From Streptomyces sp. SN-593 (lineage in GTDB: Bacteria; Actinomycetota; Actinomycetes; Streptomycetales; Streptomycetaceae), in assembly GCF_016756395.1 (NCBI RefSeq), contig NZ_AP018365.1, positions 7,506,001-7,570,000 on the forward strand: DNA of 64,000 bases. The letters run 5' to 3'. Position numbers and translations under genes: made by a program. The notes under the pieces are model-generated. The model did no database searches, had not been told where the DNA came from, and saw only the letters and a program-made list of their open reading frames with translations. Shown one piece after another: positions 43,917 to 48,241 of the stretch. How positions within the stretch are numbered: position 1 is the first letter of the stretch; every line of letters starts with the position of its first letter.

Positions 43917-43999
43917 CCGCGCGAAGGCATCTCCGGCCCGCGCGCCCGGCTCCGCGGTCCGGGGCGGGCGGGAGGAGCGGGGGTGAGCGTGCGTGCGGA

Positions 44000-45484
44000 T
44001 CAGCGGGGGGTCGACGTGGGGGTGACCTGGCGGCGGGCCGCTTCGAGGACGGCGAGGCTGTCGGCGGGGGACATCGCGCGGCTCTCCGCGGTGTCGAGGA
44101 GGCCGGGATACGGCCCGGGGGAGCAGGCGGCGCGGTAGAGGGCGCCGGAGAAGTCGTCGAACTCCTCGGCGAAGAGGTGGTGCCGGCCGCCCGCGCGGAC
44201 GAGTTCGGTCAGCATCGCGGCGTCGGTGGGCTGGGCGTGCATGCCGACCATCCGGACGGTCAGGCTCCCCCGCGCCACCAGGCCGAGCACGTGGTCGAGT
44301 TGGGCGGCGGCCACGGCGGGGTCGAGCCCCACGTTCCAGAGGTGGCAGAGCACCATCTCGTCCAGGATCGCGGTCACCGGCACGCCGTCGGGCACCCGGG
44401 CCGACGGCGTGAAGCGGTCGGCCGGCAGGTGGTGGGCGGTGCGCAGCGCGTGGGCGTAGCCGGCCGTCCACAGCACGCGCGGGAACACCGTCAGGGCGTA
44501 GGTGCGCACCCGCCCGGCGCTGCCGACGCAGGCCGCGAGCCGGTGCGGCCAGCCGGCCGCGCCGTCGTGGAGCACCGCCGGATCGGGCGCGTGCGGCAGC
44601 AGCGCGGTCGCGTCGCGGGCGCCGGGATCGGCCATGCCGTAGCGCGCGAGCAGGGAGCGGCGGCCGTCCGCGTCCACGCCGTGGCCGTCGAGCGCGCCCT
44701 CCAGCCGGGTGATGGCGCGCGGGCTGACGCCGACGGACCGCGCCGCGTCGGCCCGGCTGCGCACCGGTTCGGCGCCGGACGGCAGGCCGCGGCGCAACGA
44801 CCGGAGGACCAGGCCGAGGACGACGGCACCGACCGCCGGCCGTACGGCTCCGTGCGTACCGCCGTCCGCGTCCGGCACCCGCACCTCCGCCTCGCCCGCC
44901 CCGCCCGCCGCGCCGGCCCTGTCCGCCGCTCCGGCCCCGCAGGGCATCGCGTGCGATCCGGGCGCGCCGCCCGCCGCGCCTGCTCCGGGCGAGCCGGTGC
45001 CCTGGTCGGCGGACCGGGGAGCGGCGCGTCCGCTGTCCGGCCCGGGCGCGCCGGGTCCGTCCTCCACCCCGGTCCCGGTGCCGGGGGTCCGGCGGGTGCC
45101 GGGCGCCTCGCGTACACCGGGCAGTCCGCGGAGCCCGCCCGGGTCGGGCACGCCGGGCAGCCCGGCCGCGCCGGGAACCCCGCCTGGGCCGGGCCCCGCC
45201 CGGAGCCCGGCTGCCGGGGCGGCCGTCGGCTCGCCCCCGGCGCAGGCGGGGGGAGGGCAGGACGGTGCCGGGGCGGGCTGCTCCGGGGGGAGCCGACGAG
45301 ACGGTGGCGCGCCGGGGTCGGTCCGCTCCCGCGGCTCGCCGCGGACGCAGGAGCCGTGCGCGTCCTCCGGGCCGCGGGGTGCGGGCGGGTTCGGCCCGGA
45401 GGGGCGGCCGAGGAGGTCGCGCCGCTCGGCGGACACGCGCAGCACCCGCAGGCCCGGGCCGCCCGCCCGGCGCGGCTCCGTCAT
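44000..45484 (-). CDS. XRE-type regulator with DUF5753-like domain and long low-complexity N-terminus
   Basis: A 494-residue protein of which the first ~210 residues are Gly/Pro/Ala-rich, collagen-like in places (GVPGAAGLPGVPDPGGLRGLPG). Then come a helix-turn-helix (about 235-280, ADAARSVGVSPRAITRLEG) and a divergent DUF5753-like sensor: RVLWTAGYAHALRTAHHL and AILDEMVLCHLWNVGLDPAVAAAQLDHVLGLV align with the LLQTPAY and VVDE... blocks of the Scr1 protein at 46236. ATG 45484 overlaps the stop of a roadblock protein gene. Such sensors in streptomycetes act in development and antibiotic control; no ligand is known. Confidence 0.7.
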   Translation of the reverse strand: MTEPRRAGGPGLRVLRVSAERRDLLGRPSGPNPPAPRGPEDAHGSCVRGEPRERTDPGAPPSRRLPPEQPAPAPSCPPPACAGGEPTAAPAAGLRAGPGPGGVPGAAGLPGVPDPGGLRGLPGVREAPGTRRTPGTGTGVEDGPGAPGPDSGRAAPRSADQGTGSPGAGAAGGAPGSHAMPCGAGAADRAGAAGGAGEAEVRVPDADGGTHGAVRPAVGAVVLGLVLRSLRRGLPSGAEPVRSRADAARSVGVSPRAITRLEGALDGHGVDADGRRSLLARYGMADPGARDATALLPHAPDPAVLHDGAAGWPHRLAACVGSAGRVRTYALTVFPRVLWTAGYAHALRTAHHLPADRFTPSARVPDGVPVTAILDEMVLCHLWNVGLDPAVAAAQLDHVLGLVARGSLTVRMVGMHAQPTDAAMLTELVRAGGRHHLFAEEFDDFSGALYRAACSPGPYPGLLDTAESRAMSPADSLAVLEAARRQVTPTSTPR

Positions 45485-45963
45485 GAGGGGGCGTCCGCGC
45501 CGGCCCCCGACGCGCCCGCCCCGGCACCCGTGTTCGCCCCGGCACCGGTACCCGTATCCGCGCCGGCACCCGTGCCCGTATCCGCGCCGGTGCCGAGAAT
45601 CTTCGTCAACTCCTCGCCGAGCACTTCGAGTTCCGTTCCGTCGGGCTCAAGTGCGCAGTCCGCCGCGGCTATCACCAGCAGCACGCTGTCCGAACCGGTC
45701 TCGGCGAGCACGATCCGCCCGTCGTGCATGTCGACCACCAGCGTCCGGATGCCGCCGCCCGCGGCGTGCTCGGCGGCCCGCCGGGCGACGCCCATCATCG
45801 TGGCGCCCATGGCCGCCCAGTACTCGACGCGCTTGTCGTCCAGTTCGTAGGCGCACAGCGCCTGCCCGTCGGCCGCGACGACCAGGGCGCCGCGCACCCC
45901 CGTGACCTGTTCGAGGTGTTGCTCGACGGTCTTCTGCACTTCGGGGTGGACGGTGGGGATCAT
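45481..45963 (-). CDS. Roadblock/LC7 domain protein
   Basis: A 160-residue protein. Residues 1-125 form a roadblock fold: VTGVRGALVVAADGQALCAYELDD, YWAAMGATMMGVARRAAEHAAGGGIRTLVVDMHDGRIVLAETGSDSVLLVIAAADC. Such proteins bind small Ras/MglA-like GTPases or act in the actinomycete cvn (conservon) operons. No GTPase gene is in the window. The last ~35 residues are Gly-Thr-Ala-Asp repeats (GADTGTGA) from an expanded DNA repeat. The next gene, a DUF5753-like regulator, overlaps by ATGA, so the pair probably works together. Confidence 0.82.
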   Translation of the reverse strand: MIPTVHPEVQKTVEQHLEQVTGVRGALVVAADGQALCAYELDDKRVEYWAAMGATMMGVARRAAEHAAGGGIRTLVVDMHDGRIVLAETGSDSVLLVIAAADCALEPDGTELEVLGEELTKILGTGADTGTGAGADTGTGAGANTGAGAGASGAGADAPS

Positions 45964-46235
45964 GGTGTCTCCGGATCGCTGTGGGAGTGCCCCGCCGGCA
46001 CGGCCCCTGCGCCGCCCGTCGGCTGGGCGCCGCACGCCGCGCGGGCCGCGCGCGGCGATCTGAGGGGGCGTCACGGCAAGGGTCACGGCTTCACTATGCG
46101 CGTGCGTCCAATCACTCCGCAAGGGGCAATGTGCATGATGCAGGGTGCTCGATGCCCGGACGCGTGGCACACTGCGGGAACGGTCGGCACTCGCCGGCGG
46201 GGCCGGTGCACGTTCGAAGAGGAAGGCGCATCGCG
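45964..46235. promoter_or_regulatory. Divergent promoter region, roadblock and Scr1 units
   Basis: This 272-base gap is less GC-rich in its middle. It contains TGCATGATGCA (46132-46142), a palindrome with a central base. GAGGAAGG precedes the GTG of the Scr1 gene. No precise promoter could be fixed. Confidence 0.45.
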
Positions 46236-47102
46236 GTGAGTGAACGGCGGGCTGCTCCCACGGTGTTGCAGATCTCGCTCGGCCGCAGGCTGCGGGACCT
46301 GCGCGAGGTCGCCGGGCTGTCGGCGGCGCAGGCCGGCGAGCGCATCAGGGTCGCGCAGTCCACCGTCACCCGGCTGGAGGGTGCGAGGACGTCGCTCAAC
46401 TACACCACCGTCAAGGCGCTGCTGGAGCTGTACGGCGTGACCGGGTCCGAGGCCCGGGACTTCCTGACACTGGTCGACAAGGCCAACGAGTCCGGCTGGT
46501 GGCAGGGTTACAGCGACGTGCTGCCCGGCCGGTTCGGCGTCTACGTCAGCCTGGAGAGCGCCGCCTCCCAGATCCGCAGCTACGAACCGCAGGTGGTGCC
46601 CGGGCTGCTGCAGACCCCGGCCTACTGCGAGGCGGTCATCCGGCTCGGCTTCCCGCGCGAGTCCGACGAGTCGGTGCGCCGCCGGGTCGCGCTGCGGCTC
46701 CAGCGGCAGAACGTGCTGAACCGCCCGGACGGCGCGCCGTTCCTGTGGGCGGTCGTCGACGAGACCGCGGTCCGGCGGCCGGCCGGCAGCCGCGCGGTGA
46801 TGGCCGAGCAGATCGAGCGGCTGATGCAGACCGCGGACCTGCCGAACGTGGCACTCCAGGTGCACCCGTTCGCGGCCGGCCTGCACCGGGGCGCGTTCGG
46901 GCCGTTCACGCTCTTCCGCTTCCCGATCCCGGACTTCCCCGACATCGCGTGCGTCGACAGCCTGCGGGGCACCGCGTACCGGGACGAGAGCGCCGAAGTC
47001 GAGCTGTACCGCTCGACGTTCGAGCACCTGATGACCGGAGCACTGGCACGGCGACGCACCAAGGGCTTCCTGGAGGCCCTGCGCAAGGAGTACCTGCGAT
47101 GA
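46236..47102 (+). CDS. Scr1-type transcriptional regulator (XRE HTH plus DUF5753)
   Basis: A 288-residue regulator. The helix-turn-helix (about 13-68: LGRRLRDLREVAGLSAAQAGERIRVAQSTVTRLEGARTSL) is followed by DUF5753 (about 95-275) with IRSYEPQVVPGLLQTPAYCEAVI, LWAVVDETAVRRPAGSRAVMAEQIERLM and NVALQVHPFAAGLHRGAFGPFTLFRF. These form a large streptomycete family that normally pairs with a DUF397 protein, encoded next with ATGA overlap. GTG 46236 follows GAGGAAGG. Confidence 0.92.
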   Translation: MSERRAAPTVLQISLGRRLRDLREVAGLSAAQAGERIRVAQSTVTRLEGARTSLNYTTVKALLELYGVTGSEARDFLTLVDKANESGWWQGYSDVLPGRFGVYVSLESAASQIRSYEPQVVPGLLQTPAYCEAVIRLGFPRESDESVRRRVALRLQRQNVLNRPDGAPFLWAVVDETAVRRPAGSRAVMAEQIERLMQTADLPNVALQVHPFAAGLHRGAFGPFTLFRFPIPDFPDIACVDSLRGTAYRDESAEVELYRSTFEHLMTGALARRRTKGFLEALRKEYLR

Positions 47103-47347
47103 ACCCGACACACGTCGACCACGCCCCCGCCGCGCTGGGGGCCGATGGCTGGGTCCGCCCGTGGAGCGGCACCAACGGCGAGGCATGCGTGGAGGTCAAG
47201 GTGCTGACCGGCCGCCGGGTCGCGGTCCGCCAGTCGACCGACCCGAACGGTCCGGCGCTGATCTTCCCGGCGGAGGCGGTGGCGGAGTTCGTGGCCGCGG
47301 CCAAGGAGGGCGGCGCGGACTTCCTGGTCCGCGCCGACGTGCCCTGA
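47099..47347 (+). CDS. DUF397 domain protein
   Basis: An 82-residue protein with the DUF397 pattern: PWSGTNGEACVEVKVLTGRRVAVRQSTDPNGPALIFPAEAVAEFVAAAKEG. DUF397 proteins are the usual partners of DUF5753 regulators and may act as their antagonists, in an arrangement reminiscent of toxin-antitoxin or sigma/anti-sigma pairs. Translationally coupled to the regulator upstream. Confidence 0.9.
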   Translation: MNPTHVDHAPAALGADGWVRPWSGTNGEACVEVKVLTGRRVAVRQSTDPNGPALIFPAEAVAEFVAAAKEGGADFLVRADVP

Positions 47348-47413
47348 CCCACGGCCCCCCCGACCGCCCCGACTTCCCCCTCGTCCGTACCGACACCCAT
47401 CCGGGAGACAGCA

Positions 47414-48241
47414 GTGAACGATCCGGCGACCGGCGCCAGCACCGCGGACGACGCGGAGAACGTACCGAGTTCGGCCCGTATGTACGACTACATCCTCGGC
47501 GGCAAGGACAACTACGAGATCGACCGGGAGCGGGTGGACGCGGCCGAGCGCGCCTACCCGGGCATCAAGGAGGCGGCCCGGATCAACCGGATGCTGCTGC
47601 TGCGGATGGCCCGCTACTTCGGCGAGCTGACGGACGTCGACCAGTTCATCGACGTGGGCACGGGCATCCCGACCGAGCCCAACTACCACCAGGTCATCCG
47701 GGCGGCCCGGCCCGAGGCCCGCATCCTGTGCACGGACTTCAGCAAGACGGTGCTGCGCTACACCGAGAGCCTCGCCGAGCAGGACCCCGAGGGCCGGATC
47801 TCCTACGTGCACGCCGACGTCCGGGAGCCGGAGAGGATCCTCCAGGCGGCCCGCGCCCACCTGGACCTGAGCCGGCCGGTCGCCATGACGATGGTGGCGC
47901 TGCTGCACTTCATATCCGACGAGTTCGACCCGCACGGGATCGTCAGGACGCTCACCGACGCGCTGGCGCCGGGGAGTTACCTCGCCATCAGCCAGGTCAC
48001 CGGCGACTTCGACTCCGAGGGGGGCGAAGGGGTGGTCAAGGTCTACCGCGCCGGCGGCACCCCGGCGCAGGTGCGCTCGCACGCGGAGGTGGCGCGGTTC
48101 TTCGACGGCTTCGACCTCGTGGAGCCCGGACTGGTCGTCGCGCCCCGCTGGCACCCGGAGCTCGCGGTGCCGATGCCCTGGCCGGAGCCGGCCGGCCACG
48201 ACCGCACCCCGGTGTACGCGGCCATCGGCCGCAAGCCGTAG
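47414..48241 (+). CDS. SAM-dependent methyltransferase (PF04672/DUF574)
   Basis: A 275-residue protein of the actinomycete PF04672 family. It has SSARMYDYILGGKDNYEIDRE at the start, AARINRMLLLRMARYF, then the SAM-binding QFIDVGTGIPTEPNYHQV and ILCTDFSKTVLRY, ISYVHADVREPERIL, and MTMVALLHFISD. Methyl acceptors are unknown. Members often follow Scr1/DUF397 pairs as here, with 66 bases between. GTG 47414 is preceded by GGGAG. The stop TAG opens into a CCCCGTAG repeat region. Confidence 0.88.
   Translation: MNDPATGASTADDAENVPSSARMYDYILGGKDNYEIDRERVDAAERAYPGIKEAARINRMLLLRMARYFGELTDVDQFIDVGTGIPTEPNYHQVIRAARPEARILCTDFSKTVLRYTESLAEQDPEGRISYVHADVREPERILQAARAHLDLSRPVAMTMVALLHFISDEFDPHGIVRTLTDALAPGSYLAISQVTGDFDSEGGEGVVKVYRAGGTPAQVRSHAEVARFFDGFDLVEPGLVVAPRWHPELAVPMPWPEPAGHDRTPVYAAIGRKP

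Follow-up and report, generated by a model that had tools for sequence, protein, structure and literature searches.

Background

The closest described relatives of the locus reported here, a divergent five-gene cluster in a 64-kb window (the whole stretch of DNA analysed) of the 8.97-Mb genome of Streptomyces sp. SN-593, are the SCO1979-type whiJ/bldB/abaA clusters of Streptomyces (PMC4255298, PMC10364602). These clusters present a regulator of the same XRE-DUF5753 family, a DUF397 gene behind it, a divergent gene in front with a homologous promoter/operator and, often, a PF04672 methyltransferase. Their divergent gene encodes an AbaA-like HATPase, whereas in the window a roadblock gene and a diverged XRE-DUF5753 gene stand in that place. 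In S. coelicolor the gene adjoining SCO1979 is also AbaA-like (SCO1980; PMC4255298), and SCO1979 is cited in PMC12565409 as binding upstream of its own gene. The AbaA-like gene is usually present but is not required (5 of 10 clusters in S. venezuelae; PMC10294661). In the iosA-whiJ9-bldB9 locus of S. venezuelae, iosA holds the abaA context opposite the whiJ-bldB pair though it is no abaA gene, and WhiJ9 works via intergenic direct repeats (PMC10294661). The window resembles this locus in that the AbaA position is taken by a gene of another kind, and the WhiJ-like protein of the window may likewise exert control from the intergenic region; it differs in that IosA, a small basic protein of no known fold, is unrelated. 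The question at stake is what is under the control of the many WhiJ/BldB loci, and why ten or more of these loci are present in most streptomycete genomes.

The second group of relatives comprises the conservons (cvnABCD) and the mfp conservon of Mycobacterium (MfpD/MfpB). The window roadblock protein belongs to the CvnB/MfpD type, whose Asp-Gly motif it retains. Unlike the window, conservons have a histidine kinase, a DUF742 protein and a GTPase, and both the operon partner and the promoter of the roadblock gene are different. As regards the MglA/MglB type of GTPase-GAP pair, no GTPase is adjacent in the window and at least eight candidates lie elsewhere in the genome.

Genomic organization of the locus

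The comparisons below indicate that the window probably holds a divergent regulatory locus of the WhiJ/BldB type whose output gene has been exchanged. Judged from the sequences compared, its parts are known and their combination is new: a known switch with an exchanged output, limited to few species.

The rightward operon begins with a WhiJ-like XRE-DUF5753 regulator of 288 aa (46236..47102, plus strand; PF19054 E=4.8e-54, HTH_31 E=2.7e-15), whose start codon is the GTG at 46236. It overlaps by ATGA the gene of a DUF397 (BldB-like) protein of 82 aa (47099..47347, plus strand; PF04149 E=3.4e-14), which is followed by a PF04672 SAM-dependent methyltransferase of 275 aa (47414..48241, plus strand; E=8.9e-87; solved homologue 3giw). 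On the opposite strand, a roadblock/LC7 protein (MglB/CvnB/MfpD-like) of 160 aa (45481..45963, minus strand; PF03259 E=1.6e-16) shares an ATGA overlap, stop to start, with the gene of a very diverged WhiJ-like protein of 494 aa with XRE-HTH and DUF5753 domains (44000..45484, minus strand). An earlier reading of the sequence alone (hereafter the sequence-only reading) had placed five genes here, and Pfam matches recover all of them in those places, the DUF397 and methyltransferase genes on the right included. It had called the regulator a canonical Scr1 protein; an XRE-DUF5753 regulator it is, but of the SCO1979 family, with an NF058600 score of 353.6 bits that lies narrowly above the cut-off of 350, and orthology to Scr1 (SCO4441) was not borne out.

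Relatives of the regulator at about 50% identity are widespread, being present in 108 of 200 Streptomycetaceae genomes (E<=1e-70). The best 28 homologous loci were fetched from other Streptomycetaceae genomes, not counting the window and a second species (G026) that has the same locus. A DUF397 gene follows the regulator in 27 of these 28 loci, a PF04672 methyltransferase lies downstream, within reach, in 18, and the divergent gene encodes an AbaA-like, anti-sigma-like HATPase in 25, with the Pfam domain HATPase_c_2 verified for three of them. No roadblock gene occurs in any of the 28. Conversely, the model that detects the HATPase in 25 of the 28 relatives finds no match at 40-54 kb of the window. 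The window genome also holds a canonical paralogue (L101), in which AbaA faces the XRE-DUF397-methyltransferase operon. As shown by comparison with these loci, the rightward operon is a SCO1979-type whiJ-bldB-methyltransferase module, and the sequences support well that the AbaA-like HATPase is gone from the window, its slot being filled by the roadblock and the diverged XRE-DUF5753 genes. As for the methyltransferase, the passages of the WhiJ/BldB literature drawn on here make no mention of PF04672 proteins as components of whiJ-DUF397 loci.

The sequence-only reading had singled out the pairing of a roadblock protein with a DUF5753-type regulator, and had proposed an undescribed system. The pairing is real, the two genes overlapping and the second species keeping the pair, and it is unusual; in the literature searched, no paper was found that mentions roadblock and DUF397 proteins together. 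A stand-alone system it is not, being a WhiJ/BldB-type locus in which the AbaA-like HATPase was replaced.

Pairs of XRE and DUF397 genes have also been proposed as type II toxin-antitoxin systems, with an XRE antitoxin and a DUF397 toxin (discussed in PMC10364602 and PMC6262351), to which the remaining genes would be additions. This is extremely unlikely here, given that 14 DUF397 proteins overexpressed in S. coelicolor caused no clear toxicity (PMC10364602), that the Scr1/Scr2 pair did not act as a toxin-antitoxin system (PMC6262351), and that PADLOC made no toxin or defence assignment. A defence function was rejected as well, as the sole PADLOC match was a weak one to a generic methyltransferase. 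No Rfam family was found at 40-54 kb of the window.

Divergent promoter and operator region

The intergenic regions of the relatives have in common the block ACTTGGCAAGTGTCACTCTGAAAATTGCAGAGTG, flanked by the -10 of the facing gene (ATAGTG, on the other strand) and by GTGGCACACTGC. A diverged version of this block, in register, is present in the window and in G026. In the window, the divergent promoter/operator block that is homologous to, and in register with, the abaA-whiJ intergenic regions spans 46082..46147. A 66-nt profile trained on 25 family loci, the window and G026 not among them, scores this site at 25.4, rank 1 of 127,870 positions, the runner-up reaching -19.3. The operator half alone also ranks first, of 127,942 positions, and the facing-promoter half alone just seventh of the same number, so the support for the promoter half comes from its position.

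Within this block, the predicted -10 of the roadblock operon (CATAGT, 46093..46098, minus strand) coincides in position with the ATAGT found at many abaA loci, and is identical in the window, G026 and A. yanglinensis, a species of the same genus (Actinacidiphila) as the window strain. Its predicted -35 (TTGCGG, 46117..46122, minus strand), at a spacing of 18 nt, is overlapped by an operator-like element of the WhiJ/SCO1979 family (CGCAAGGGGCAATGTGCATGATGCAGGGTG, 46118..46147), which is the rank-1 site of the operator-only profile. The predicted -10 region of the whiJ-like gene (GTGGCACACTGC, 46164..46175, plus strand) corresponds to the element found upstream of most family members. Comparison thus shows, at the level of predicted elements, that the facing gene sits behind a promoter and operator homologous to those of abaA-type loci. 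A. yanglinensis, a species without the regulator operon, still has the promoter half (10.8, rank 1) and shows decay in the operator half (-7.0 vs 17.3), a pattern that fits an operator decaying once its binder was lost.

Distribution and selection

The sequence-only reading had staked its case on synteny in another strain and on a DUF5753 domain in the 494-residue protein, and both exist. G026 is the only other genome with the full set: all five genes have orthologues there, arranged and flanked as in the window, and the orthologue of the 494-aa protein is 78% identical. Among 35 Actinacidiphila genomes, the roadblock gene occurs in 3 and the 494-aa protein in 2. A third genome of these 35 (G007) has just a 34% identical homologue of the 494-aa protein, and 395 Streptomycetaceae genomes, for each of which only the top candidates were scored, yielded no further close relatives. 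A search of plasmids with the roadblock protein gave no match, and the one match of the regulator in a viral scan was weak and irrelevant.

In A. yanglinensis (G033), the flanking genes are those of the window and enclose the roadblock gene with its upstream region; the 494-aa protein and the rightward operon are both lacking. In this species, an APC-like transporter gene (recognised by eye; L012:8447-10022) lies between a PLP/GntR gene and the roadblock gene, the place of the 494-aa gene in the window. In other congeners the flanking genes, for an S53 peptidase and a LuxR-type protein, are present with no five-gene set beside them.

Between the window and G026, dN/dS is 0.19-0.30 for the right genes and 0.42-0.51 for the left genes; in comparisons with A. 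yanglinensis it is 0.22-0.34 for the roadblock gene, so that all frames stay below 1. Because the orthologues are ordered in G026 and dN/dS lies at 0.19-0.51, the five-gene set appears to be more than chance. The left genes might nevertheless be relics, or have been brought together by chance: a roadblock gene strayed from a conservon and a decaying WhiJ paralogue would have ended up beside a WhiJ locus, with no joint function. Such an origin would suit their presence in 2-3 of 35 species of a single genus, as well as the weak HTH, the expanded linker and the tail repeat described below; we regard it as quite unlikely, given the intact reading frames, the dN/dS of 0.22-0.51, below 1 in all comparisons, and the conservation of both the gene overlap and the promoter.

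The roadblock protein

The closest solved structure to the roadblock protein is 9hef (Rv3364c/MfpD). In the model of its authors, Asp33-Gly34 of MfpD is set at the GTPase interface (PMC13015309); Asp32-Gly33 of the window protein aligns with this GTPase-facing pair and is invariant among its orthologues. Other than orthologues, the best matches in 394 genomes of the class are 28 loci (1 of them in the window genome), all beside conservon genes, with DUF742 in all and a kinase and a GTPase in most. No conservon histidine kinase, DUF742 protein or GTPase was detected in the 64 kb (E<=1e-4), which agrees, within the window, with the earlier remark that no GTPase is present for the roadblock protein. 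Elsewhere in the genome there are at least eight conservon GTPases. By these comparisons the roadblock protein is a CvnB-type orphan, whose action in trans on a conservon GTPase is plausible.

The same observations bear on another arrangement, in which the roadblock and 494-aa genes form a two-gene module of their own. The roadblock dimer would be a dedicated cofactor of the 494-aa regulator, no GTPase would be involved, and the WhiJ locus would supply just the promoter. The ATGA overlap preserved in both species, the lack of a GTPase nearby and the faster evolution of the left proteins (dN/dS 0.42-0.51 vs 0.19-0.30 on the right), as co-evolving partners might show, would all be in keeping with it. 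We think it unlikely, as the constrained roadblock gene of A. yanglinensis, without a 494-aa protein, indicates that the pair is not obligatory, and the Asp-Gly motif, GTPase-facing in MfpD, is invariant.

The C-terminal tail of the roadblock protein is encoded by a window-specific tandem repeat (24 bp x 3.3; 45511..45590, minus strand), absent from G026 and A. yanglinensis. Two further roadblock-related regions of the window genome were observed: two tandem conservons, 83-87% identical to each other (L050, C1:6228500-6242500), and a second roadblock-like cluster without conservon partners, which is not beside DUF5753 genes (L057, C1:796500-806500).

The 494-residue protein

The DUF5753 domain foreseen in this protein was confirmed at residues 315-481 (PF19054 E=1.7e-14; 54.4 bits vs a Pfam cut-off of 23.4). 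Its HTH is degenerate and sub-threshold (E=0.032, 15 bits vs a cut-off of 27). The first 214 codons (44843..45484, minus strand) encode a stretch rich in Gly, Pro and Ala, with weak codon periodicity, that had been described as collagen-like. This description failed: the longest Gly-X-Y run has 5 triplets, a length reached by 6.7% of shuffles (P=0.07). At the same position G026 has a Pro-rich linker of 65 residues, and from this comparison the N-terminal stretch is a variable, non-conserved linker.

The label of sensor for DUF5753 proteins is an assumption; to our knowledge, no ligand of the domain is known. A sequence search for a solved structure of DUF5753 matched only HTH domains, and AlphaFold2 models from single sequences without alignments were useless (pLDDT 39.5 for the 494-aa core and 35.3 for the 288-aa regulator). 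A tree of the window genome's WhiJ-like proteins, built by a quick method that left several deep forks weakly supported, sets the 494-aa protein apart from the others, its branch measuring 2.67 changes per site. Its most similar relatives are found in G007 and in a genome from another genus of the family (G185), and no roadblock gene was detected near them.

Proposed mechanism and significance

By analogy with the described loci, the 288-aa WhiJ-like protein would recognise the element at 46118-46147, which overlaps the predicted -35 of the leftward promoter and precedes the promoter of the regulator gene itself. From there it would govern two operons, the one to which it belongs and the roadblock operon. 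Either repression or activation of the latter is compatible with the sequence. The DUF397 protein would set the activity of the regulator, as in the WhiJ9/BldB9/iosA locus of S. venezuelae. With less certainty, the effector would be the roadblock dimer, acting in trans on one or more small conservon GTPases, which is the role we prefer for it; the co-translated 494-aa protein may be a second regulator or a binding partner. A wider proposal, possible and offered as tentative, is that the facing slot is a swappable output position: an anti-sigma-like HATPase would here have given way to a stand-alone roadblock protein, which would modulate conservon GTPases in trans.

Some observations weigh against this interpretation. 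The roadblock protein is tied to no particular GTPase among the conservon candidates, and it persists in A. yanglinensis without a local regulator, so it can work without one. The diverged 494-aa protein may lack DNA-binding activity. At only about 50% identity between the whiJ-like protein and its relatives, the match to the operator is partial and binding is a prediction; the published WhiJ9 repeat CGNNCTCAAC was not found in the window intergenic region. The loci that trained the 66-nt profile are related to each other and its scores are thus over-confident; the placement of the window site by the profile is not in doubt.

The locus indicates that an exchange of the controlled gene can leave the regulator, the DUF397 partner and the divergent promoter in place. 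It offers a natural output swap, together with a related species without the regulator and with a half-decayed operator. Should the roadblock protein act on conservon GTPases, it would form a link between two regulatory families of actinobacteria that are both poorly understood, and WhiJ/BldB developmental switches would be wired directly to bacterial small-G-protein signalling. The narrow distribution limits the weight of the locus.

Other facing XRE-DUF5753 genes in the genome

The sequence-only reading had described the locus as one with opposing sensors. Facing genes are present, but they are not special: the window genome has six other head-to-head XRE-DUF5753 pairs (L090-L095; C1 at 2.27, 2.78, 6.27, 6.76, 7.01 and 8.41 Mb), and the facing sensors were dropped as the novelty. 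Like the window locus, each pair consists of two facing WhiJ-like genes with DUF397 on one side only, which is a recurrent layout in this genome. Unlike it, they have no roadblock gene, and their solo partners come from other WhiJ clades, two in number. A placement of the 494-aa protein in the clades of these solo partners was not supported by the tree, in which it joins none of them. One of the six pairs (L092, 6273871) contains an internal TAA.

Five very similar solo XRE-DUF5753 genes were also observed (L115-L119; C1 at 3.29, 3.88, 3.98, 4.31 and 4.68 Mb). They sit in stretches of more than 2 kb that are 83-96% identical, with an AbaA-like gene near four of them, and look like a recent duplication, perhaps carried on a mobile element.

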